Source: Thermoplasmata archaeon
Lineage (GTDB): Archaea > Thermoplasmatota > Thermoplasmata > Lutacidiplasmatales > UBA184
DNA length: 32,097 nucleotides
Direction: 5' to 3'
Assembly (NCBI GenBank): GCA_021806135.1
Contig: JAJZYB010000013.1
Coordinates: 1 to 32,097 of the forward strand
The position numbers and the translations under genes are program-made. This document shows positions 315-19,093 of the stretch, one piece after another. The notes beneath the pieces were generated by a model, which had not been told where the DNA came from, did no database searches, and saw only the letters and a list, made by a program, of their open reading frames with translations. Position 1 is the first letter of the stretch, and each line of letters starts with the position of its first letter.

Positions 315-1379
315 TCACCCCGGCAGCGGAATGTCCGCGTGCTGGATGCCCCCCGCTACGAAGTCGGGATGGGCCTGGAGCCAGCGCAGCTCCCGCTCGA
401 CCCCCTCACGGATCTCTTCCTCGGTCTTCGGACAGAAGTTCGGGAGACGCTGGTAATTGAGCGCGGACCACACCAGCTCGTCCGGGTTGAGCTCCGGTGC
501 GTAGGCCGGGAACCGTCGCGTCTTGAGCCTCTTCCGCGCTTCCCACGGGAAGGCCTTCACGTCCTTCCGACGGTGGATGGTCCCGTTGTCCCAGAGGAGG
601 ATGATCTTCCCGTGCACCTCCTTCAGAAGGTGCCGAAGGAAGTCCATGACCCCACCTCCATCGAAGTTCTCGTTCATCTTGCTGACCTCGAAGTAGAGCT
701 GTCCCGTCACCCCCACGGCCGAGATTAGGGAGAGCTTCATCCGTTTCCCCTGGCGGACCTGGATCTCGGGACGTCTCCCCTCGATCCACCAGGTCCGACG
801 CACGTTGGGCTCCGACTGGACGAAGCTCTCGTCCAGGAACAGGGTGGTGGCCCCGGTCCGTCGGGCCTCCCTCTGGATCTTCGGCCACTGGACTTTCTTC
901 CAGTGGCGAATGTACGCCTCGTCCCGTTCCAACGCACGGGGAATCGGGACTTGGGCGGACATGCCCAGGTCGCGCAGGACGTGCCACACCCCGGACTGGG
1001 TGTACTCCTCCCCGAACTCCTTCTCGATGACCTCGGCCACGCGCTTCAGGGTCCAGAGATCTGTGGCGTAGCCGTGGGCCAGGGCCCCCTCGAGAAGGAT
1101 CTCGCGGAGGCGCTTGTGCTGCTTCTCGTTGAGCTTCCGGGGACCACCGGGATGAGGGGCCTCCCTCCAGGAGTGGGGACCCTGGGTCCGCTGTCGATTC
1201 TCCCACGCCCAGACGGTCTTGTACGCCACGTCCAGCCGACGGGCGATCTCTGCCTTGGAAACTCCCTTCCGCAGCCAGCGATAGGCCAGTCGCCTCCGCT
1301 CCTCTCGGACTGAGATGGGTCGCACGGTCCTTCGGCGGGATCGTGGCCGGCGTCCCTGATGACTCCTTCGGTGGGTCAC
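315..1379 (-). CDS. IS630-family DDE transposase
   Basis: A 354-residue protein with a GTG start at 1379. Residues about 22-62 form a helix-turn-helix (KAEIARRLDV, then TVWAWENR), and residues 80-135 a second winged-helix-like region. The RNase H-fold DDE_3 catalytic domain follows: D183 in TTLFLDESF, D264 in LLWDNGTIH and E301 in the PELNPDELVW motif typical of IS630. The D264-E301 spacing of 36 residues fits the family. The frame is intact from start to stop with all three acidic residues present, so the enzyme may be active. It would cut and rejoin the element ends at TA targets. The N-terminus is Arg-rich, and a later start is possible. Confidence 0.9.
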   Translation of the reverse strand: MTHRRSHQGRRPRSRRRTVRPISVREERRRLAYRWLRKGVSKAEIARRLDVAYKTVWAWENRQRTQGPHSWREAPHPGGPRKLNEKQHKRLREILLEGALAHGYATDLWTLKRVAEVIEKEFGEEYTQSGVWHVLRDLGMSAQVPIPRALERDEAYIRHWKKVQWPKIQREARRTGATTLFLDESFVQSEPNVRRTWWIEGRRPEIQVRQGKRMKLSLISAVGVTGQLYFEVSKMNENFDGGGVMDFLRHLLKEVHGKIILLWDNGTIHRRKDVKAFPWEARKRLKTRRFPAYAPELNPDELVWSALNYQRLPNFCPKTEEEIREGVERELRWLQAHPDFVAGGIQHADIPLPG

Positions 1380-7836: not shown

Positions 7837-9201
7837 TCACTCGGGGGGACGTCGGTGGGTCCGAGGTGCGGCATACGCGTAGGTCCTCCGCGCCTGCCTA
7901 CGACCCCCACCCCCTCCCCCAAAGGAGCCCCGGGACCGCGGGCGGCTTTGTTGCGACCCTCCGCGGTCAGTGCCTCGGGGGCGTCCTCCTCCCCTCCCAG
8001 CGGAGGGAGGGGGCGGGGCGCCGGACGTCTCGTAAGGGAAACCGGGAATCCGGGCGCGGGGGATCGTCATTCCGATCAATTGCTCCACCCGTGCGAAGTC
8101 GTCTTCCTCTTCGGGGCTCACCAGGGTGAAGGCGTCCCCGCGTCGCTGGGCGCGCGCGGTGCGGCCCACCCGGTGGACGTAGGTCTCCGTCTCGTGCGGC
8201 ACGTCGTAGTTGACCACGTGGGTGATCCCTTCCACGTCCACTCCCCGGGCGGCCAGGTCGGTGGCCACGAGCACGCGGTGGGCCCCCCGGCGGAAGCCCT
8301 CCAGCGCCCGGAGCCTCTGGCTCTGGCTGCGGTCGCCGTGGATCGCCGAGGCGGAGATCCGGCGCTGGCTCAGCTGGCGCGCCAGCCGGTCCGCGCGGTG
8401 CTTCGTCCGCGTGAAGACCAGGACCGAGGTCATCGTGGCATCCTGGAGGAGGTCGCAGAGGAGATCGGTCTTCTGGTGGGCGGAGACCGGCAGGGCGAGG
8501 TGTGTGACCCCCACGGCGGCCACCGTGGCCTCGTCCACTTGGACCATCTTCGGGTCCCGAAGGAAGTCCCGGGCCAGCCGGACGACCTCCGGGGGCATGG
8601 TGGCGGAGAAGAGCATGGTCTGGCGTTCCTGGGGCAGCCGGCTGAGGATCCGCCGGACATCCGGGATGAACCCCATGTCCAGCATACGGTCCCCCTCGTC
8701 CAGGACGAGAATGCTCAGCGAGCGGAAGTCCACGTAGCCTCGCCCCATGTGGTCCAACAGGCGGCCCGGGGTCGCAATGATCACTTCGGCCCCTCCCCGG
8801 AGCGCGCGTTCCTGGTCCGGCATCCCCACGCCTCCATAGACCGCGGCTCCCCGGAGGGTGGTGTGCCGTCCCAGTTGGCGAAGGAAGCCCTCGGCCTGCA
8901 CGGCGAGTTCCCGGGTGGGGGTCAGGATCAGGGCATGGATGCGCCCCCGGGGCTTGTCCATGAGACGCTCCAGGATGGGCAGAAGGAAAGCGGCGGTCTT
9001 CCCGGTCCCCGTCTGCGCGGTTCCGATGAGGTCCCGTCCCTGCACCGCCTCCGGGATGGTCCGGTGCTGGATGGGGGTGGGGACGAGGTAGCCCATCTCC
9101 CGGATCCCCTTGCGGAGGCTCGCGTTCAGCGGAAGGTCTTCAAAGGTGGGTGGTCGGCGTACAGGGCTAGCGGGCTGGGCGGGGCTCTCGGAATCGCTCA
9201 T
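7837..9201 (-). CDS. DEAD-box family RNA helicase with DEGD motif II
   Basis: A 454-residue ATP-dependent RNA helicase. Seen in order: Q-motif region (F20, Q45), motif I AQTGTGKT (62-69), Ia PTRELA (95-100), TPGR (144-147), motif II DEGD (168-171), motif III SAT (199-201), then the second RecA domain with [11 protein letters not shown] (313-323) and HRVGRTAR (343-350). The C-terminal tail (about 400-454) is rich in Gly and Arg, an RGG-like RNA-binding tail. The alanine of the DEAD motif is glycine, a rare change that keeps the catalytic acids. ATG 9201 gives the usual length; the frame is open to 9588 but that part overlaps the divergent mutase gene. RhlE/CshA-like cold or RNA-decay roles are possible. 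Confidence 0.93.
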
Positions 9202-9324
9202 GCTGTCTCGGGGTCCCGATCCGCCTTCGCCGAAGGGGAGTCCGATCTTCTGCCCGGACGGACCCGGGTACCCCTTAAGAAGCCTCAGGGGCCGCCAGGG
9301 AGCCCTTCCCCCCCGGGGAAAACC

Positions 9325-9331
9325 CTTTACA
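9325..9331 (+). promoter_or_regulatory. TATA-like box for the methylmalonyl-CoA mutase operon
   Basis: CTTTACA centred about 27 nt upstream of GTG 9355, in an otherwise GC-rich stretch; it supports GTG 9355 as a leaderless start. Confidence 0.5.
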
Positions 9332-9354
9332 AGGCCAGCGACTGGGACGGAATC

Positions 9355-9789
9355 GTGCCGACCCGACGACCCACACCGGCCAAGGGAAAGCGACCGATCC
9401 GAGTCCTGATGGCGAAGCCGGGCCTCGACGGCCATGACCGGGGGGCGAAAGTGGTGGCCCGTGCGCTCCGGGACGCGGGCATGGAGGTCATCTACGCAGG
9501 CCTCCGCCAGACCCCCGAGGACATCGTGGAGGCCGCGGTGGAGGAGGATGTGGACCTCATTGGGCTCTCCATCCTCTCCGGCGCGCACATGGTGCTCTTT
9601 CCCCGGGTCCTCCAGCTCTTGAAGGCTCGGAAGGCCTCCGAGATCAAGGTCTTCGCCGGAGGGATCATCCCGGACGAGGACGCCCGGAAGCTCAAGCAGA
9701 TGGGGATCCGGGCCATCTTCGGCCCCGGAACGAGCCTCCAGGCCATCGTGGACGCCGCCCGTCAGCTGGCAGGGAAAAGGGCCTCATGA
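9355..9789 (+). CDS. mcmA2: Methylmalonyl-CoA mutase, B12-binding small subunit
   Basis: A 144-residue cobalamin-binding subunit. The B12 signature DxHxxG is D25-H27-G30 in [12 protein letters not shown], where H27 would ligate cobalt. SILSGAH (72-78) and AGGIIP (101-106) complete the flavodoxin-like B12 fold. With its large catalytic subunit it interconverts methylmalonyl-CoA and succinyl-CoA in propionate and odd-chain or branched-chain metabolism. The large subunit is not in the window. It is the first gene of an operon whose next gene, the MeaB chaperone, starts inside its stop codon (ATGA). Confidence 0.93.
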
Positions 9790-10796
9790 AAAAGGGGGTC
9801 CCGGGTCCCCGCTCGCGGGAGCGGCCGCCTTCTCGGCCGACCGCCCGCTTGAGCCCGGTGGCACGCCAGATCGTTTCCGGGGACCGACGCGCCTTGGGCC
9901 GGCTCATCTCCGACGTGGAGGCCGGGCGGACGGAGGCGAGGACGGTCCTGAAGGAACTGCACTCCCGGGCCGGCAAGGCCTTGGTGGTGGGCCTCAGCGG
10001 GCCGCTGGGGGTCGGGAAAAGTTCCCTGGTCAACCGCCTTCTCCAGCATCTGAAGGGCCTCGGGAGGCGGGTCGGGGTCATCGCGGTGGATCCCTCCAGC
10101 CCTTTCTCGGGGGGGGCCGTCCTCGGGGACCGGGTCCGGATCGACCGCGACCCCTCGGATCCCTCCGTCTTCTTCCGGTCCATGGCGAGCCGGGGTCACC
10201 CCGGAGGTCTCTCCCAGAGCACCCGGGAGGTGATCCGTCTCCTGGAAGCTTTCGGGATGGACACCATCCTGGTGGAGACCGTGGGGAGCGGGCAGGTGGA
10301 CGTGGAGATCCATTCCATCGCCAGCACCCGGATGGTGGTGCTCGTCCCCCATCTGGGGGACGAGGTCCAGACGCTCAAGGCGGGCCTCTTCGAGATCGCC
10401 GACATCTTCGTGGTGAACAAGAGCGACCTCCCCGGCGCGGACCGGGCCGCCCGGGACCTCTCGGAGCTCGCCCAGCTTTCGACCCCCGTCGACGGTTGGA
10501 GGCCCCAGGTGGTGCAGACCTCGACGCTCGCGCCCTCTGGTATCGTGGAGCTCTGGAACGCGGTGGAGGCGCACGAACAGGCCCTCCGTTCGGGCACCCA
10601 GCTGAGGGCCCGTCTCACCGAGCGGGCGGACCAGGAGCTCCGGTCGCTGCTCCTGGCCCGGGTGCAAGAGTCCTTGGACCAAGAGCTACGGCCCACGCCG
10701 GGGTGGGAGACGCTGGTCTCGGCGGTGGTGGACCGGACCTCCGACCCCTACACGGCCTCTGAGAAGGCCTACCGGTTGTTGCTGCGGTGTCTCTAA
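9786..10796 (+). CDS. meaB: Methylmalonyl-CoA mutase-associated GTPase MeaB (ArgK family)
   Basis: A 336-residue G3E GTPase that protects and reloads B12 in methylmalonyl-CoA mutase. It has Walker A GPLGVGKS (72-79), [16 protein letters not shown] (101-116), RGHPGG (136-141), the ETVGSGQ motif (164-170, usually ETVGVGQ) and the guanine-specificity motif NKSD (211-214). The C-terminal helices would form the dimer arm. The ATG overlaps the mutase stop by four bases, so the subunits and chaperone are made together. The older name ArgK (arginine transport kinase) is a misassignment in the family. Confidence 0.95.
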
Positions 10797-11482
10797 AGCC
10801 CACCGGGCCGATACGGACCGGGACTATGGTCACCGTGCCGTGGTACTCCGTGGTGATCTTCGCCGGGGTGGGGTTCACTTCCTACTTCATCTTCGCGTCC
10901 TTTCTCTACGGCGCCGGCTACCAGCCGGCCCCGCCCCGGGTGGCGCGCCGGATGCTGCAACTGGCCAAGGTGGGCTCCGGGGACGAGGTCTTCGACCTGG
11001 GGGCAGGGACCGGGGGGCTCCTCTTCCAGGCCGTGGAGGTCCTGGGCGCCCGGGGTACGGGTGTGGAAGTGGAACCGATCCGCTACCTGTACCTCCGGTA
11101 CCGGCGCCGGCGAAGCCCTGCCCGGGACCGGATCCACATCCTGCGGAAAGACCTCTTCACCGTGGATCTCACCAACGCCACCGTGGTGCTCGCCTTCCTG
11201 TGGCCCGGGGCGATGCGCAGGCTCAAGGAGAAACTGAAGAAGGAGCTTCGCCCGGGCACCCGGGTGGTGAGCTACTACCACCGGATCACCGGGTGGAAGA
11301 CACTGGAGGAGGATGCGCCCTTGAGGGTGTTCGTGTACGGGATCCCGCCGGTGGAGGAGCCCGAGGAACCCCCGCGCAGGTCTGGACCGATAGGACTCGC
11401 CCCGGGAGCGCTCGCGGCCGAGATCAGGACCGGTCCGGCGGAGGGGGTTGCCGCCGGCGCCGTGACGCCAGCACCGCGATGA
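10787..11482 (+). CDS. Membrane-anchored class I methyltransferase (FAM173/aKMT-like)
   Basis: A 231-residue protein with one N-terminal membrane helix (about 18-40) and a Rossmann methyltransferase core. The SAM motif DLGAGTGG lies at 70-77, with the ribose-binding acid E94 in GVEVEP. Motif LAFLWPGAM (about 136-144) and RVVSYYHRITGW (about 160-171) resemble protein-lysine methyltransferases of the FAM173/ATPSCKMT and archaeal aKMT group. GTG 10787 overlaps the end of meaB by ten bases, so it is part of the operon; ATG at residue 14 is an alternative. Protein-lysine methylation is inferred from family resemblance. Its 3' end overlaps the convergent S53 protease gene by 59 bases. Confidence 0.75.
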   Translation: MSLKPTGPIRTGTMVTVPWYSVVIFAGVGFTSYFIFASFLYGAGYQPAPPRVARRMLQLAKVGSGDEVFDLGAGTGGLLFQAVEVLGARGTGVEVEPIRYLYLRYRRRRSPARDRIHILRKDLFTVDLTNATVVLAFLWPGAMRRLKEKLKKELRPGTRVVSYYHRITGWKTLEEDAPLRVFVYGIPPVEEPEEPPRRSGPIGLAPGALAAEIRTGPAEGVAAGAVTPAPR

Positions 11483-14400
11483 GGATCGCGGCTACCCCGG
11501 CCACGACGATGGATAGGCCTAGGTAAAGACCCTCCCCGGAGAACGAGAGGGGAAACGCGAGGCCAGGGGAGTGGCTCGACGAGCTTTCCGCAGCGAGCGT
11601 GATGGTCTCGGTGACCGGCTGCCCTTGGACGGTCGCATTCCCGAAGGACGGGCTGGCGGTCATTCCTGAGGGGGGCAGCACGTGGAAGCCGTAGCTCCCA
11701 TTTGCCAGCGACACGTTCAGGGAGCCGCTGGTCCCGGTGAGGGTCGTTACGGCCGTCAGGTTGACCTGCCAGGCATCCCCCCCGGGTAGGTTGATGACCT
11801 GGAAGACCACGTCAAATCGCACCAGGGAGAAGTGGAGGGGGACGGTGACCGCGTTCCCGAGTACCGTCAGGTCCGCGGTGGTGGGGGTTCCCCTCCAACT
11901 CACGTTGCCCGAAAGGACCTGGTAGACGTAGGTGCCGTTGGGGAGGGAGAGTTCCACGCCCTCGTTGGACTCGGGCTGGGTGGGCCCGCCGTTGACACTG
12001 ATGCCCCACGACCCTGGGCCGGTGCCTGCGACGCCCTGGAAGACCACTGGGTAGACGACCCGGGTGAAGGCCACCGTCCAGTTCGATCCGGTCCCATCCA
12101 CGACGATGGTCCCACTGGCGTTCACGGGCCGCCAGGTGGGGTCTCCAGAGGTCACCGTGTAGGGATAGGAGCCGTTGGAAAGGTCCAGGAAGACCCCGGA
12201 CGCGGGGGTTGACCAGGACCCGACGCCAGCCACGGTGAGGTTCCAGGAGGCCGGTCCGGGCGCGCTGGAGGCGAGGATGGAAACGAGGTAGGTCATCCGC
12301 TGGAAGGTGGCGTTGACGGTGATGGCTGATCCCTGGACGGTGAACCCCACGGCCCTCGGGGTCGGTCGGAAGAGGGGATCCGTACTGGCCAGCTGGACCA
12401 GGTAGCTCCCGTTCGTCAAGAGGAAGGTGCTCTGGGTTCCCTGGACCCTGGTCGGAGTCTGCCCGCTGATGTTCGCCCACCACGCCACGGAGCTCGGGAG
12501 CCCGGAGGCGACCACGTCCACCCCGTAGGTGGCGGCCACGAAGGTCACGTTCACGGTGAGGGGACTGCCGGCCACGACCAGCGAGCCGAAGGCTGGGGTG
12601 GGCTTCCACTGGGTGTCGGGGGTACCCACCGCGTAGCCGTACGTGGCGTTGGGAAGGTTGGCCACCAGGGAAGCCCCGGTGGTGCTCACTTGGACCCCGT
12701 TGGACAAGGTGATGTTCCAGGAGGTCGGCGTGCCGGCGATGCGCACGAAGGTGACCGGGAAGCTCGGCGGGGAGAAGGTGATCGGAACGCCGGTGGCAGC
12801 CCCGGCGACCAGCTCGGTGCCGGAGTGCGGGGACGGGAGCCAGCCCTTCGAGGGGGCGACCGTGAAGGGATAGCTACCGTTCAAGACCGTGAAGTGAATG
12901 GTCGAGCCGGTGGCGCTGAGCGTCTGCGTCCCGAGGGTCACCTCCCACGACTGGCCAGAGGGGAGTCCCGACTCGGTGAAGGTCACCGGGCTCAAATAGG
13001 GCCGGAAGGACACCGAGGCCGTCAACGGGGTTCCGTTCACGTCGAGCGAGCCGGTCCCCGGTGTCGGAGCATAATAGCTGCCTCCGCTGGAGATGGTGTA
13101 GGAATACGTGCCATTGTAGAGGGAGAACGAGAGGGAAGTGCTCGTGGTGTTGAACGAACCGACCCCGGAAACGTTCACGTACCATCGGGCCCCCGCGGGG
13201 AGCCCCGATTCTTGGAACGTGACGAGGTAGTGGGCCGGAGAGAGGTAGCTCAGAACGCCCTGGTCGGCGCCCCCGTTCTGGTATCCTACCGTCCAGTCGT
13301 TCCCGGTCGCCGGTTGCCAGGTGAGGTTGGAGGCGACCTCTCCCGTCTCATCCACGCTCTCCTGGAAGGCTTTGGAATTCGCTTGGACGAAGCCTGTTTG
13401 CCCGAACGGTCGGACCCTGGGGACCAGTGATCCCTGGGTGGGGAGAAGGAAGTTCCCGATCCCGAGAGACGGGCCGCCCACCAGTCCGAACTGAGGAGAG
13501 AGGCCGCCGGGGGACGGATTGTTGGGGTATGGTCCGTTCGAGTAGTTGAGCCCTTCCCAGCTGTAATTGTACCATAGGTCACCGATTATGTAGGCGGCCC
13601 CAGGAACCGGCAGGGAGACGGTGTGGGCATTGACGGAGAAGTCCACCGTCGGGGTGGGGGTGAGGGTCAGGTTCGAACTCACGACGAACGTGTGAGGCAG
13701 GCGTACGAAGATGGGGCTCGGATAGTTGTACTCATAGACGGTGTCCGACGGGTACAGCCCGTAGAACGGGAACACCACCCAGCCGCTGTAGGTCATGTCC
13801 CAGCCTCCTGTCACGTTGGTGATGTAGATGACGTTCTGGATCCAATAGACCGGGGCCCCGAGGCTGTTGGCAAGGAAGAAGTTCTGCTGGATCGACGCAT
13901 TGAATTGTGTGTTGGTTCCTCCCCCAGCGAGCGTTGAGGTGACGTTGAGACCCGCGAGGCTGAGGACATCTTGGACGCCGGAGAGCCTTCCTGGGACCCC
14001 GGAAGAATTCGTGGTGAGGAAGTACATGGTGTAGTTGTAGGCGTCGAGGGATCCCCAACCGGTCACCAGGCTGTAGCCGTAGTGGGTGGTGTAGAGGAAG
14101 TTCCTCCCTTCTGTGACCGGGGAGAGCGGCAGGGTCGGAAGGGAGGAGTTGTACGGGCCTATGGTATCGTAGCCGGTGGTGGCGCCGCTCGCGAGCGCGG
14201 CGAACTCCTGGTTGGCCAGGGGGTACAGCGCCGGGTCCAGGAATCCCAGGTTCCCCTGGCCCGAGGCGTTGAGGACATGGTCGATCTCTGCCACCATCCC
14301 GGCGGTCAGGGGAGAGGCGATGCTGGTTCCCCAGACAGAGTAGAAGGGCCCTCCGTTCGACGCGTTCGTGGCCCGATATTGTGCTCCATCGACGGAAATG

Positions 14401-16031
14401 GTCACCAGCGTATTGTTGGCGATGGCCGACAGGTCAGGCACCCCGCGTCCGGCACCGGAGATCCATTGGTTCGCCGAACTGGCGGTCTGCCAGGATGGTT
14501 CGGGGAAGAGGGAGCTGATCCCCCCCGTGGAACCCGCCGGCCCCCCATCCGCCGTGTCGGAACTGGAGATGTTCCACGCCACCTGGCTCGCTAACGTCAG
14601 GCCATTCGTGAGCGTGACCGTGGTCCCCCCTACCGCCACGTCCCCAAAGGAGTTGTAGGCCATGCTGGAGGGGATCTCAACGGTGCTTCCCAGGTATTTC
14701 GAACTCGCCGGGTTGTCCCCACTGTCCCCGGAGGAGGCGAGGACCGTGATCCCTCGTGCCTGGGCCTGCTCCAGGGAGGAATACCAAGAGGGGCTAGTGC
14801 TGTTGAAGCTGGAGACCTCCTTCCCTCCCCATGAGTTGGAGATGACCGAGACGTTGTTCAGCCCCGGATCTGCGGAAGGTGGGCTGAGGACGGTGGCGAA
14901 CGCCTGATCGAGGTTCGTAAATGAGGGGGACGGACCATAGACGTTGTAGATGGTCGCCCCCGGCGCAGTCGAGCCAACCATCTCCAGGTCGAGGGTGTTC
15001 TCGAAGTTCGCTCCTGTGGTGTCGAAACTGGCGCTGTTGCCCGGGGCGATCGCCCCCGCGATCGGCACTCCCACGAGATGGGCGTGGGGGACCCCCGCCG
15101 GGAGGGTTTCGTTGTAGAAGCTGTAGACGTCGGCGGGGACGAACGGGCCCACGGGGTTTAGGGAGCTGTTGACCCCCGCCCAGAGTATGGTGGCCACCAC
15201 CGCTGACGTGGGGTACCCATGCTGTTGGAAGAGGCTCTGCTCGTCGTACGCCACCTGGAAGTCTGGAGCGTACTCGTACTGGACCCCGTTCACGGTGGGA
15301 GGCAAGAGGTAGCCGGAAGCGGACGAGGAGGCAGGCCGGGCCGCGGCTCCTGCCGGCGACACGAGCGAGAGGTGCGAGTCCACGTGGGCGGTGAGGAGGG
15401 GATCCGTGTCCAGCCCCGACACCGAGGCCACCGCCATCGCCAACGATGAGGGGAGGGAAGGCGCCCCGGTGGGGGCCACGAAGGGCATCGTGCCCCGTCG
15501 ATACTCGGAGAAGTTCGTGTGGAACATGGCCGATAGGGCCGAGAGGGACGCGTTGAAGGCGAGGGTGGCCCGGTCGGAGAAGGGCTGCACGGCGGTCCCG
15601 CCCTGTCCTTCCACGTACCGGATCAGCCCCGAGTACGTCGACGGGGAGGGGGAGAACTCAGCGTCGAACTGCGCCGCGGTCAGATAGTGGTGATAGTCGG
15701 GGGAGCCCGGATCGGAGAGCTGGGAGAGCAACCAGTGCAGGGTCCGCTGGTGAGTGTATTGGAGAGTGACCAGGATGTGCAACACCTGGCCCGGGGCAGG
15801 GGTCGAGGAGACCAGGGCCGGTGGAGGGGAGGCGGTTGGATGAGCCCAGTGGACCGGTTCGAGAGCGCCCGAGAGGGCGGAAGCCCCCGCGGGGGGGAGG
15901 CCTCCGTTCCCGTGGGGAGCCACGGGCGCCGGGGCCGAGGCGAGACCACCGGCCGTCCCGGATAGGAGCAGCGCGCCCAATGCCAGCAGGACGAGGACCC
16001 ATCGCGCCCGGCGGCTATCGGACGACTCCAA
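11424..16031 (-). CDS. Giant secreted S53 protease fused to a thermopsin-like region and repeats
   Basis: A 1535-residue surface protein. A signal peptide-like helix lies at 11-33, followed by a pro-kumamolisin activation domain (about 70-215) and an S53 (sedolisin/kumamolisin) catalytic domain at about 245-670. The catalytic residues are E344 and D348 in NFENTLDLE, oxyanion D436 in SSGDSGD and S570 in WGTSIASP. A region at about 700-930 (ASIQQNFFL, YWIQNVIYI) resembles thermopsin-type proteins. Seven repeats of about 80 residues follow (about 934-1475), several starting with a VTFxESGLP-like strand and containing an NGSY/NGTY turn. A membrane anchor lies at about 1500-1522 with a basic tail. 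S53 enzymes are acid-active, which suggests an acidic habitat. The start is TTG 16031 behind a GGGGGAC stretch. Many N-x-S/T sites are present. Confidence 0.88.
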   Translation of the reverse strand: MESSDSRRARWVLVLLALGALLLSGTAGGLASAPAPVAPHGNGGLPPAGASALSGALEPVHWAHPTASPPPALVSSTPAPGQVLHILVTLQYTHQRTLHWLLSQLSDPGSPDYHHYLTAAQFDAEFSPSPSTYSGLIRYVEGQGGTAVQPFSDRATLAFNASLSALSAMFHTNFSEYRRGTMPFVAPTGAPSLPSSLAMAVASVSGLDTDPLLTAHVDSHLSLVSPAGAAARPASSSASGYLLPPTVNGVQYEYAPDFQVAYDEQSLFQQHGYPTSAVVATILWAGVNSSLNPVGPFVPADVYSFYNETLPAGVPHAHLVGVPIAGAIAPGNSASFDTTGANFENTLDLEMVGSTAPGATIYNVYGPSPSFTNLDQAFATVLSPPSADPGLNNVSVISNSWGGKEVSSFNSTSPSWYSSLEQAQARGITVLASSGDSGDNPASSKYLGSTVEIPSSMAYNSFGDVAVGGTTVTLTNGLTLASQVAWNISSSDTADGGPAGSTGGISSLFPEPSWQTASSANQWISGAGRGVPDLSAIANNTLVTISVDGAQYRATNASNGGPFYSVWGTSIASPLTAGMVAEIDHVLNASGQGNLGFLDPALYPLANQEFAALASGATTGYDTIGPYNSSLPTLPLSPVTEGRNFLYTTHYGYSLVTGWGSLDAYNYTMYFLTTNSSGVPGRLSGVQDVLSLAGLNVTSTLAGGGTNTQFNASIQQNFFLANSLGAPVYWIQNVIYITNVTGGWDMTYSGWVVFPFYGLYPSDTVYEYNYPSPIFVRLPHTFVVSSNLTLTPTPTVDFSVNAHTVSLPVPGAAYIIGDLWYNYSWEGLNYSNGPYPNNPSPGGLSPQFGLVGGPSLGIGNFLLPTQGSLVPRVRPFGQTGFVQANSKAFQESVDETGEVASNLTWQPATGNDWTVGYQNGGADQGVLSYLSPAHYLVTFQESGLPAGARWYVNVSGVGSFNTTSTSLSFSLYNGTYSYTISSGGSYYAPTPGTGSLDVNGTPLTASVSFRPYLSPVTFTESGLPSGQSWEVTLGTQTLSATGSTIHFTVLNGSYPFTVAPSKGWLPSPHSGTELVAGAATGVPITFSPPSFPVTFVRIAGTPTSWNITLSNGVQVSTTGASLVANLPNATYGYAVGTPDTQWKPTPAFGSLVVAGSPLTVNVTFVAATYGVDVVASGLPSSVAWWANISGQTPTRVQGTQSTFLLTNGSYLVQLASTDPLFRPTPRAVGFTVQGSAITVNATFQRMTYLVSILASSAPGPASWNLTVAGVGSWSTPASGVFLDLSNGSYPYTVTSGDPTWRPVNASGTIVVDGTGSNWTVAFTRVVYPVVFQGVAGTGPGSWGISVNGGPTQPESNEGVELSLPNGTYVYQVLSGNVSWRGTPTTADLTVLGNAVTVPLHFSLVRFDVVFQVINLPGGDAWQVNLTAVTTLTGTSGSLNVSLANGSYGFHVLPPSGMTASPSFGNATVQGQPVTETITLAAESSSSHSPGLAFPLSFSGEGLYLGLSIVVAGVAAILIAVLASRRRRQPPPPDRS

Positions 16032-17043: not shown

Positions 17044-17051
17044 TTAAGTAT
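17044..17051 (-). promoter_or_regulatory. TATA-like box for the FKBP gene
   Basis: ATACTTAA on the minus strand, overlapping the stop codon of the glycosyltransferase and centred about 28 nt upstream of ATG 17019. It suggests the FKBP gene has its own leaderless promoter despite lying directly behind the glycosyltransferase. Confidence 0.5.
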
Positions 17052-18117
17052 TGCTGGGGGGTGACCGAGGGAGGTGGCGTCGGCCGCTCCACCCGTACCG
17101 GAGGAATCCCCGGAACGCCCCGTAGGTGGTCGCCCATCGACGGAGGATCTCAAGGGGCCGGAGACGGAAGCCGGGATAATGCGCCTCCTCCGCCCGGCCT
17201 TGGATCGCCAGGGCGGACACGAGCATAAGGAAGCTCAGCCCGGAGGCGAGGAGGACCCCCTCCCCCCAGATGGGCCGGGCCGGAAGGGACACCCAAAGCA
17301 ACGCTCCCACCACGGCCAGGAAGGGAGGGAGCAGGTACGGGAGAAGCCGGCCACCGGTCGCCTCGTAGGTGCTCCCGTTGCGCCTCCAGACCACGTACCC
17401 GCCCTTCGCGTAGGTCGCCTGCTTGCGGAGCAGGCTCCAGAGCGTCAGGCCAGTGAAATCGTGTCCCACGGCCGCCCCGGGCACATAGCAGCCTCGCCAG
17501 CCGGCTCGCAGGGCCCGGAGCGCGAAGTCCTGATCCTCACTGGAGGCTCGGGGGTCCAGCGTGGTGTCCAGCCTTCCCACCTCCTCGAAGACCTTCCGAC
17601 GCCAGGCCGAATTTCCCATGGGGAGGGCGTGCGGGTGGTGTCGCGCCACGGTGTCGTAGAAGCGACGGAGGTAGCCGTCGTAATAGCTCGCACCGAACGT
17701 GGCCACCGTGCCCGGCATTCCGGGGGTGGGCCCTCCGGTGAAGCCCACGGTGGGATCCGTGAAGGGCGCGACGAGCTCCATGAGCCATCCCGCCGGGGCC
17801 TCTTCATCCGCGTCCAGAAACGCCACGACCTCCCCCCGGGCCTCCCGAAGGGCCCCGTTACGGCTCTCGGCAATGGTGCCAGGGACCCGCAGCGGACGCA
17901 CCCGGGGGTCCCGCTGCGCCCACTCCTGGGCCGATTCGAATGTCCCGTCCGTGGAACCCCCGTCCGCCACCAGGACCTCCAGGGGAGGACAGGTCTGCCC
18001 CTCCAGGCTTCGGAGCGTACGGGTCACCCGGCGATCGTTGAGGACCGTCACCACCACGGTCACCGTGGGTCCCGCCGGGGAACGCGGGACCGGGGCCCGG
18101 CCCTCTCCCTCAGCCAT
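17044..18117 (-). CDS. Family 2 glycosyltransferase, membrane-bound
   Basis: A 357-residue GT-A fold glycosyltransferase. VVVTVLND (21-28) begins the nucleotide-sugar domain, VADGGSTDGT (50-59) is the usual sugar-nucleotide loop, and DAD at 102-104 in FLDADEE is the metal-binding DxD. SEDQDFALRAL (about 190-200) is the acceptor-side ED motif. Two membrane helices near 255-300 and an amphipathic C-terminus tie it to the inner face of the membrane. ATG 18117 lies inside the end of the epimerase gene (8-base overlap), so the two are co-expressed, and an epimerised UDP-sugar donor is a reasonable inference. Products could be glycolipid or surface glycan. Confidence 0.9.
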   Translation of the reverse strand: MAEGEGRAPVPRSPAGPTVTVVVTVLNDRRVTRTLRSLEGQTCPPLEVLVADGGSTDGTFESAQEWAQRDPRVRPLRVPGTIAESRNGALREARGEVVAFLDADEEAPAGWLMELVAPFTDPTVGFTGGPTPGMPGTVATFGASYYDGYLRRFYDTVARHHPHALPMGNSAWRRKVFEEVGRLDTTLDPRASSEDQDFALRALRAGWRGCYVPGAAVGHDFTGLTLWSLLRKQATYAKGGYVVWRRNGSTYEATGGRLLPYLLPPFLAVVGALLWVSLPARPIWGEGVLLASGLSFLMLVSALAIQGRAEEAHYPGFRLRPLEILRRWATTYGAFRGFLRYGWSGRRHLPRSPPSNT

Positions 18118-19093
18118 GGCGGACCGGCGACGATCTCGGAACCGGGTCCCGGAGGGCCCGGATGGTCTCGTCCACCACCTCGGCGGACCGGTATCGGGGG
18201 GTGAAGCCCAACCGCCGCAGCCGGTCGATGGACAGATGCTGGCGAGGGACGTCGCCCGCCCACCCCCGGGGCCCTCCGGTGTACTCGATCCGTGCCCCGG
18301 TACCGGTCGCGGACACCACCCGTTGGGCGATCTCGGCCACCGAGATGGTGTCCTCGGGAGCCAGGTTGAACACGTTGACGGGTTCCTTCCCGTGCTCCGT
18401 GGCGTAGGTCATCGCCTTCACACAGTCCTCCACGTGGAGGTATCCCTTCCGTTGGGATCCATCGCCCAGCACTTCCAGGCGATGGGGGTCGCGACGGAGC
18501 TTCTCCAGGAAGTCATAGATGACGCCGTGGGTCGCCCCAGGTCCACAGACGTTGGCGAAGCGGAAGACCCAGGCCTGGAAACCGAACGTATGGACGAATG
18601 CGCTCACCAGCCCCTCCGACGCGAGCTTGCTCGCCCCATAGAGGCTCTCCGGGAGCAGAGGCCCGTAGTCCTCCGGGGTCGGGAAGACCGTGGGAAAGCC
18701 ATAGACCACGGAGCTCGACGAGAACGCGATGCGCTTCACCGACGCTCTCCGCATGGCCTCGAGCACCCGCTGGGTGGCGAGCGTCCCCTGTTCCAGGTCC
18801 AGGTGGGTGATCTCCTTCCCACGTCGGACGTCCGGGTTCGCCGAAAGATGCCAGACGAACTCTGTCTCCGTCACTCCCCGGAGAAGCGTGGGGGGGTCCA
18901 GGACATCCCCCTCGAGGATCTCCACTCTCGGGTCGCCGGAGAGGTCGTGGAGGTTTCCCCGGGTCCCGGAGGAGAAATTGTCTAGGACGCGGACCCTCCA
19001 GCCCCGATCCAGGAGCTCCCGCACCAGGAAGTGACCGATCCCTCCGGCGCCGCCGGTCACCAGGGCCCGCGGCCCGTCTCCCGCCTTCCGCAC
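18110..19093 (-). CDS. NAD-dependent sugar-nucleotide epimerase/dehydratase (GalE-like)
   Basis: A 327-residue extended short-chain dehydrogenase. The NAD-binding GGAGGIG motif is at 14-20 with D38 in VLDNFSSG binding the adenosine ribose, as in UDP-glucose/GlcNAc 4-epimerases. The catalytic Ser region FSSSSVVYG (123-131) and Y151-x3-K155 in LYGASK are present. The start is GTG 19093. It forms an overlapping pair with the glycosyltransferase, supplying its activated sugar, and shares a palindromic TATA-like promoter with the divergent small-protein operon. Exact substrate (glucose, GlcNAc or uronate) cannot be read from sequence. Confidence 0.9.
   Translation of the reverse strand: MRKAGDGPRALVTGGAGGIGHFLVRELLDRGWRVRVLDNFSSGTRGNLHDLSGDPRVEILEGDVLDPPTLLRGVTETEFVWHLSANPDVRRGKEITHLDLEQGTLATQRVLEAMRRASVKRIAFSSSSVVYGFPTVFPTPEDYGPLLPESLYGASKLASEGLVSAFVHTFGFQAWVFRFANVCGPGATHGVIYDFLEKLRRDPHRLEVLGDGSQRKGYLHVEDCVKAMTYATEHGKEPVNVFNLAPEDTISVAEIAQRVVSATGTGARIEYTGGPRGWAGDVPRQHLSIDRLRRLGFTPRYRSAEVVDETIRALRDPVPRSSPVRHG

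Follow-up and report, generated by a model that had tools for sequence, protein, structure and literature searches.

Positions 1 to 32,097 of contig JAJZYB010000013.1 (forward strand; referred to here as the window), which belong to the 1.85 Mb assembly GCA_021806135.1 of a Thermoplasmata archaeon with a GC content of 68%, encode a large protein in which a protease domain of family S53 is joined to a thermopsin-like (TL) domain, seven repeats and a membrane helix. Based on profile comparisons the TL domain is a significant but very diverged homologue of the thermopsins (peptidase family A5) that falls outside the Pfam family as currently drawn. Rather than being peculiar to this genome, the fusion is an old architecture found across the Thermoplasmata lineage. 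On balance we consider it probable that the protein acts as a tethered, acid-activated S53 endopeptidase with the TL domain as its substrate-holding partner.

Domain layout and S53 catalytic residues

The open reading frame (ORF) starts with a TTG codon. Its bounds coincide exactly with those proposed in an earlier note that had been made from the sequence alone, and every part named there, including the prodomain and the C-terminal membrane helix, was found in the order claimed:

11424..16031, minus strand: whole ORF encoding the S53-TL-repeats-membrane helix protein, 1535 amino acids
15939..16031, minus strand: putative signal peptide region, residues 1-31, with a hydrophobic stretch at 12-30 (from the sequence; hydropathy peak at 11-13)
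15408..15806, minus strand: Pro-kumamolisin activation domain, residues 76-208 (PF09286, E 1.3e-20)
14025..15311, minus strand: S53 catalytic domain, residues about 241-669 (PF00082, E 1.2e-10; kumamolisin-As 1sio, E 8.9e-22)
13227..14024, minus strand: TL beta-sandwich domain, residues 670-935, 266 amino acids (hhalign, PF05317 matches in relatives, AlphaFold2 model)
11571..13226, minus strand: seven ESGLP-type repeats, residues 936-1487, about 79 amino acids each (repeat model)
11463..11531, minus strand: C-terminal membrane helix, about residues 1501-1523, followed by RRRR (hydropathy 2.8 at 1504)

The N-terminal signal and the C-terminal helix (1499-1525) account for the only strong hydropathy peaks of the whole chain. 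A match to the NCBIfam model CoaP_CTERM at 1498-1528 was weak and remained below the threshold. The chain contains no cysteine, five lysines and 41 N-glycosylation sequons, a composition as expected for an acid-exposed surface protein.

Both the pro-kumamolisin domain and the catalytic residues characteristic of family S53 (serine in the GTSxxxP motif, the Glu/Asp triad and the oxyanion aspartate) are present. The Pfam match within the catalytic domain covers residues 321-584 and represents the subtilase-clan domain, while the best solved-structure match of the protein was kumamolisin-As. E344, D348, D436 and S570 align to conserved positions of kumamolisin-As and agree with the known catalytic residues of the family. 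The claim of intact S53 catalytic residues was thus borne out, and they are kept in 47 to 50 of the 52 fusion proteins that were aligned:

15000..15002, minus strand: codon of the catalytic E344 (kumamolisin-As alignment; E in 47/52 fusions, two gapped)
14988..14990, minus strand: codon of the catalytic D348 (kumamolisin-As alignment; D in 49/52 fusions, two gapped)
14724..14726, minus strand: codon of the oxyanion-hole D436 (kumamolisin-As alignment; D in 48/52 fusions, two gapped)
14322..14324, minus strand: codon of the nucleophile S570, in GTSIASP (kumamolisin-As alignment; S in 50/52 fusions)

With these residues preserved in almost every fusion, catalysis is under selection.

Thermopsin homology and residues of the TL domain

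The earlier note had described the middle region as resembling thermopsin and had suggested a profile search against family A5. This search gave a divided answer. Even with the E cut-off relaxed to 10, the Pfam search detected no match of the window protein to the thermopsin family PF05317, and none was detected elsewhere in its own genome. However, the domains of nine out of 30 relatives match PF05317 individually (best E 2.7e-5), so that the missing match of the window protein does not refute the homology. The profile-profile comparison of the TL domain with 30 thermopsins resulted in an E value of 4.9e-6 over 194 columns, and hhalign against 70 A5 thermopsins in an E value of 3.2e-7 (score 54.8, 206 columns). 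As controls, none of 40 column-shuffled alignments exceeded a score of 24.7 and the reversed alignment scored 21.1, on which grounds a chance resemblance was rejected. Sequence searches identified no solved homologues of either the TL domain or thermopsin.

The alternative that the TL domain represents an unrelated, convergent jelly-roll beta-sandwich is therefore very improbable in our view. Although the lack of a Pfam match in the window protein and the sequence identity to A5 of about 17% would be compatible with it, the profile-profile score is more than twice that of any shuffled control and the alignment is co-linear over about 200 columns. Furthermore, the relatives match the family independently, and the motifs QxN, YW(I/V)Q(N/D)V, GGP and T(G/A)E are common to both groups in the same order.

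According to a review of the family by Rawlings the catalytic residues and the fold of thermopsin are still open; D129, D144, D228, D257 and D302 have been considered as aspartic candidates, while Gln109, Asn111, Gln128, Asn148 and Glu305 were listed as other conserved residues (PMC3842238). We counted these positions in 70 A5 sequences, the thermopsin numbering being carried over via the motifs. Gln109, Asn111, Gln128 and Glu305 are invariant in 70/70 sequences, Glu305 being the sole invariant acidic residue. D129 (40/70) and D302 (44/70) are not invariant; D228 (69/70), D257 (66/70) and E259 (68/70) are nearly so, and the motifs DNxWN, which includes Asn148, and PAPxG are invariant or almost invariant.

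It had been left unclear in the earlier note whether the thermopsin-like part keeps catalytic residues. All five proposed aspartates turned out to be replaced, unconserved or without counterpart in the TL domains. The positions of D257 and E259 are occupied by S/D-P-Q and that of D302 mostly by Gln in the 52 TL domains; the TL alignment shows nothing corresponding to D228, to DNxWN with Asn148 or to PAPxG at the N-terminus, and the DAEL motif of A5 is lost as well. The four residues that are invariant in A5 have nevertheless been kept in the great majority of the TL domains:

13881..13889, minus strand: Q715-Q716-N717, corresponding to thermopsin Gln109 and Asn111 (hhalign; Q in 46/52, N in 48/52 TL domains)
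13836..13838, minus strand: Q732 in YWIQNV, corresponding to thermopsin Gln128 (kept in 48/52 TL domains)
13338..13340, minus strand: E898 in ETGE, corresponding to thermopsin Glu305 (kept in 49/52 TL domains)

AlphaFold2 predicted all-beta structures for the TL domain (predicted local distance difference test, pLDDT, 90) and for a true thermopsin (pLDDT 86, falling below 50 at the tail carrying Glu305), and the strand lists of the two models run parallel. In Foldseek searches the top match of both models in the PDB was scytalidoglutamic peptidase 2ifr (TL domain E 4.8e-4, thermopsin E 5.0e-5); neprosin appeared lower in both match lists, and alginate lyases matched too. The superpositions are poor, with template modelling (TM) scores of 0.31-0.42 for 2ifr and of about 0.3-0.46 overall at root mean square deviations of around 9-11 Å. 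The predicted fold match of the TL domain and thermopsin to the G1 glutamic peptidases is hence suggestive, not proof. A common sequence origin of TL or A5 with the eqolisins (PF01828) found no support, the hhalign probability being below 1%.

Distribution of the fusion and the shared repeat stalk

Residues 664-930 were used as query for a survey of 300 sampled Thermoplasmata genomes from 90 genera. The TL domain was detected in 36 of these genomes, representing 12 genera, and in 46 loci of named records including Cuniculiplasma sp. and I-plasma. Wherever upstream sequence is present it directly follows an S53 domain in the same ORF, also at four divergent loci and in one further paralogue; a survey for this domain order had been proposed in the earlier note. 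Among the loci with upstream sequence no TL domain without S53 was found; the apparent exceptions could be traced to the ends of contigs and, in the case of L079, to a split frame. The loci L187 (G190) and L188 (G067) represent a divergent paralogue pair of about 1670 amino acids whose TL domains lack the equivalents of Gln128 and Glu305 while S53 is intact. The idea that TL and A5 genes exclude each other was also considered and rejected, as several genomes carry both.

In a tree of 80 S53 domains all 52 TL-bearing sequences fall into one clade (starred in the tree) together with five TL-free ones, and the TL label requires four changes compared to 23 for shuffled labels. This suggests one gain followed by few losses; thus, the fusion was probably acquired once and later lost in a few members. 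The median identity of the fusions to the window protein is 57% for S53, 51% for TL, 35% for the first repeat and 34% for the prodomain; the TL domain is thus almost as conserved as S53, and the other two parts are less so.

The seven repeats, matched at residues 937-1484, score 91-100 bits each with the repeat model. As this model was built from the same seven copies, the scores demonstrate internal likeness only. The earlier description of seven repeats of approximately 80 residues proved accurate, the literal ESGLP being restricted to the first two copies. The same repeats follow the peptidase domain in 28 of 30 true thermopsins examined, and in close TL-free S53 relatives (e.g. L224) the S53 domain runs straight into them. 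Their occurrence in both groups points to module shuffling. Since the stalk is a shared module, the TL domain was probably brought in by recombination of two stalked proteases; this event would have taken place in the ancestor of the single S53 clade, among proteins that already shared the stalk.

The TL-free S53 gene L224 (minus strand) and the TL-bearing L092 lie on opposite strands of one genome, separated by about 3 kb, and provide a natural pair to show what the TL domain adds. In the genome of the window protein itself the loci L117-L121 (contigs C51, C36, C52, C2 and C37) comprise further S53 proteins without TL domain (814 and 927 amino acids) as well as three large ORFs (857, 1240 and 1133 amino acids) with ESGLP-type repeats and no S53 or thermopsin match. 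At L192 and L193, in two genomes, several hundred residues that by eye resemble a parallel beta-helix come after a thermopsin domain and precede ESGLP-type repeats and a membrane helix.

Within the window, genes predicted to encode a family 2 glycosyltransferase and an NAD-dependent sugar epimerase (17044-19093, minus strand) were detected upstream of the protease gene on the same strand; they are possibly surface glycosylation genes. An ORF with a B12-binding domain similar to methylmalonyl-CoA mutase, followed by MeaB, is convergent to the protease gene (7855-10796, plus strand), and an ORF for a DDE_3/winged-helix transposase lies near the window edge (315-1379, minus strand).

Proposed function and comparison with known systems

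In the proposed mechanism the signal peptide would export the chain, and the prodomain would hold the S53 domain inactive up to its own removal at low pH, whereupon the Ser-Glu-Asp site would cut extracellular proteins. The seven immunoglobulin-like (Ig-like) repeats may form a glycosylated stalk, anchored in the membrane by the single C-terminal helix. The TL domain, which has preserved the beta fold of the thermopsin core along with a single group of polar residues (Gln, Asn, Gln, Glu) but none of the proposed catalytic aspartates, would most likely hold the substrate by lining a cleft beside the S53 site. The idea of the earlier note that two peptidases are combined on one anchored stalk is therefore retained insofar as an active-looking S53 domain is joined to a thermopsin homologue. 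However, the pairing of two working peptidases is doubtful, as the TL domain lacks the proposed aspartates together with DNxWN, DAEL and PAPxG; with the equivalents of Gln109, Asn111, Gln128 and Glu305 retained, it may or may not be active.

Two observations weigh against this mechanism. The near-invariance of the residues equivalent to Gln109, Asn111, Gln128 and Glu305 exceeds a purely structural need, and a second active site would fit it equally well. Furthermore, the fusions L105 and L116 from Thermoplasmata metagenome-assembled genomes lack some of the S53 catalytic residues (E to Q, D to N and S to G in L105, in which the polar cluster of the TL domain is still present; E and S to A in L116), which implies that the protein may serve another use in some lineages; both are possible candidates for pseudo-protease surface proteins. 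The four divergent TL domains of L187-L190 have conversely lost much of the polar cluster while their S53 sites are intact. Taken together, the two modules can decay independently.

A dual protease in which the TL domain is catalytic as well, the counterparts of thermopsin Gln128 and Glu305, Gln732 and Glu898, forming a glutamic pair beside the serine-carboxyl site and by extension making A5 a glutamic instead of an aspartic family, is possible but rather unlikely. It would account for Glu305 as the only acidic residue invariant in A5, accompanied by the likewise invariant Gln109, Asn111 and Gln128, and for the retention of exactly these four residues in the TL domain while the proposed aspartates are gone. 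The two independent models, moreover, share 2ifr as top match, with neprosin further down both lists. It has been objected to a glutamic thermopsin that glutamic peptidases ignore pepstatin (PMC3842238); since the glutamic peptidase neprosin is weakly inhibited by pepstatin and by 1,2-epoxy-3-(p-nitrophenoxy)propane (EPNP) (PMC9343461), the argument from pepstatin sensitivity is weakened. However, the low TM scores and high deviations, the additional matches to alginate lyases and further beta sandwiches and the failure of hhalign to relate TL or A5 to the eqolisins argue against a glutamic site. So do the poor thermopsin model at the Glu305 tail and the absence from TL of DNxWN, which is invariant in A5, and of D228, D257 and E259, which are nearly so. 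The joint claim that the TL domain is an active Gln/Glu peptidase and that the whole A5 family is glutamic, its aspartates being dispensable in a sister family, appears clearly unlikely. By analogy, the TL domain and the stalk might instead serve to dock the protease on the protein coat of the cell, with TL as a structural element and digestion as a secondary function. Saci1846, a protein of related layout, has been demonstrated to help anchor the surface layer (S-layer) in Sulfolobus acidocaldarius (PMC12207459), and the two fusions with dead S53 sites would be in agreement with such a role. Taking into account that the S53 residues of nearly all other fusions are under selection for catalysis, we regard coat docking as improbable.

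The substrate-holding and the catalytic alternatives have different consequences. An active TL domain would overturn the aspartic assignment of A5, whereas an inactive one would be an example of a protease recruited as a helper domain. A sister family which has lost the proposed aspartates and kept Gln109, Asn111, Gln128 and Glu305, along with confident models of the TL domain and of thermopsin, provides a small set of residues for mutagenesis. The architecture furthermore illustrates how different acid-protease heads are shuffled onto a common surface stalk in acidophilic archaea.

Neither of the outcomes that the earlier note had named as refuting its reading occurred: the similarity to thermopsin proved significant, and a search of the open-licence literature, the domain architectures in InterPro and UniProt lying outside it, turned up no prior account of the S53-TL order. 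The fusion itself is lineage-wide. In passages of that literature naming both, thermopsin and S53 appear as separate extracellular peptidases. A protein listed as Thermopsin-Subt (NP_394205.1) from Thermoplasma acidophilum likewise joins thermopsin to a subtilase-like domain, but, as far as the listing shows, in the reverse order, with thermopsin N-terminal to the subtilase (PMC2605481). It was not accepted as the same architecture: in two genomes presumed to be Thermoplasma, an identity inferred by us, the thermopsin and S53 ORFs that were checked are separate, NP_394205.1 being known to us from its listing.

Kumamolisin and kumamolisin-As (1t1e, 1sio) of family S53 share the prodomain, the catalytic domain and the four catalytic residues with the window protein, but possess no thermopsin-like domain, repeats or membrane anchor. 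The G1 scytalidoglutamic peptidase and neprosin represent the best solved fold match of TL and thermopsin; these glutamic peptidases are active in acid and use a dyad, either Gln/Glu or Glu/Glu, carried by a beta sandwich (PMC9343461), while they differ from the TL domain in chain length, in their low TM scores and in the lack of detectable sequence similarity. The S-layer associated proteins Saci1846 and M164_1049 of the Sulfolobales belong to the thermopsin family and, like the window protein, possess Ig-like domains as well as a membrane helix at the C-terminus; they differ from it in that no S53 domain has been reported for them (PMC12207459). Family A5 (PF05317) finally shares profile similarity, strand order and Gln109, Asn111, Gln128 and Glu305 with the TL domain, whereas the latter is distinguished by the absence of the aspartic candidates, DNxWN, DAEL and the N-terminal PAPxG and by its position C-terminal to an S53 domain.

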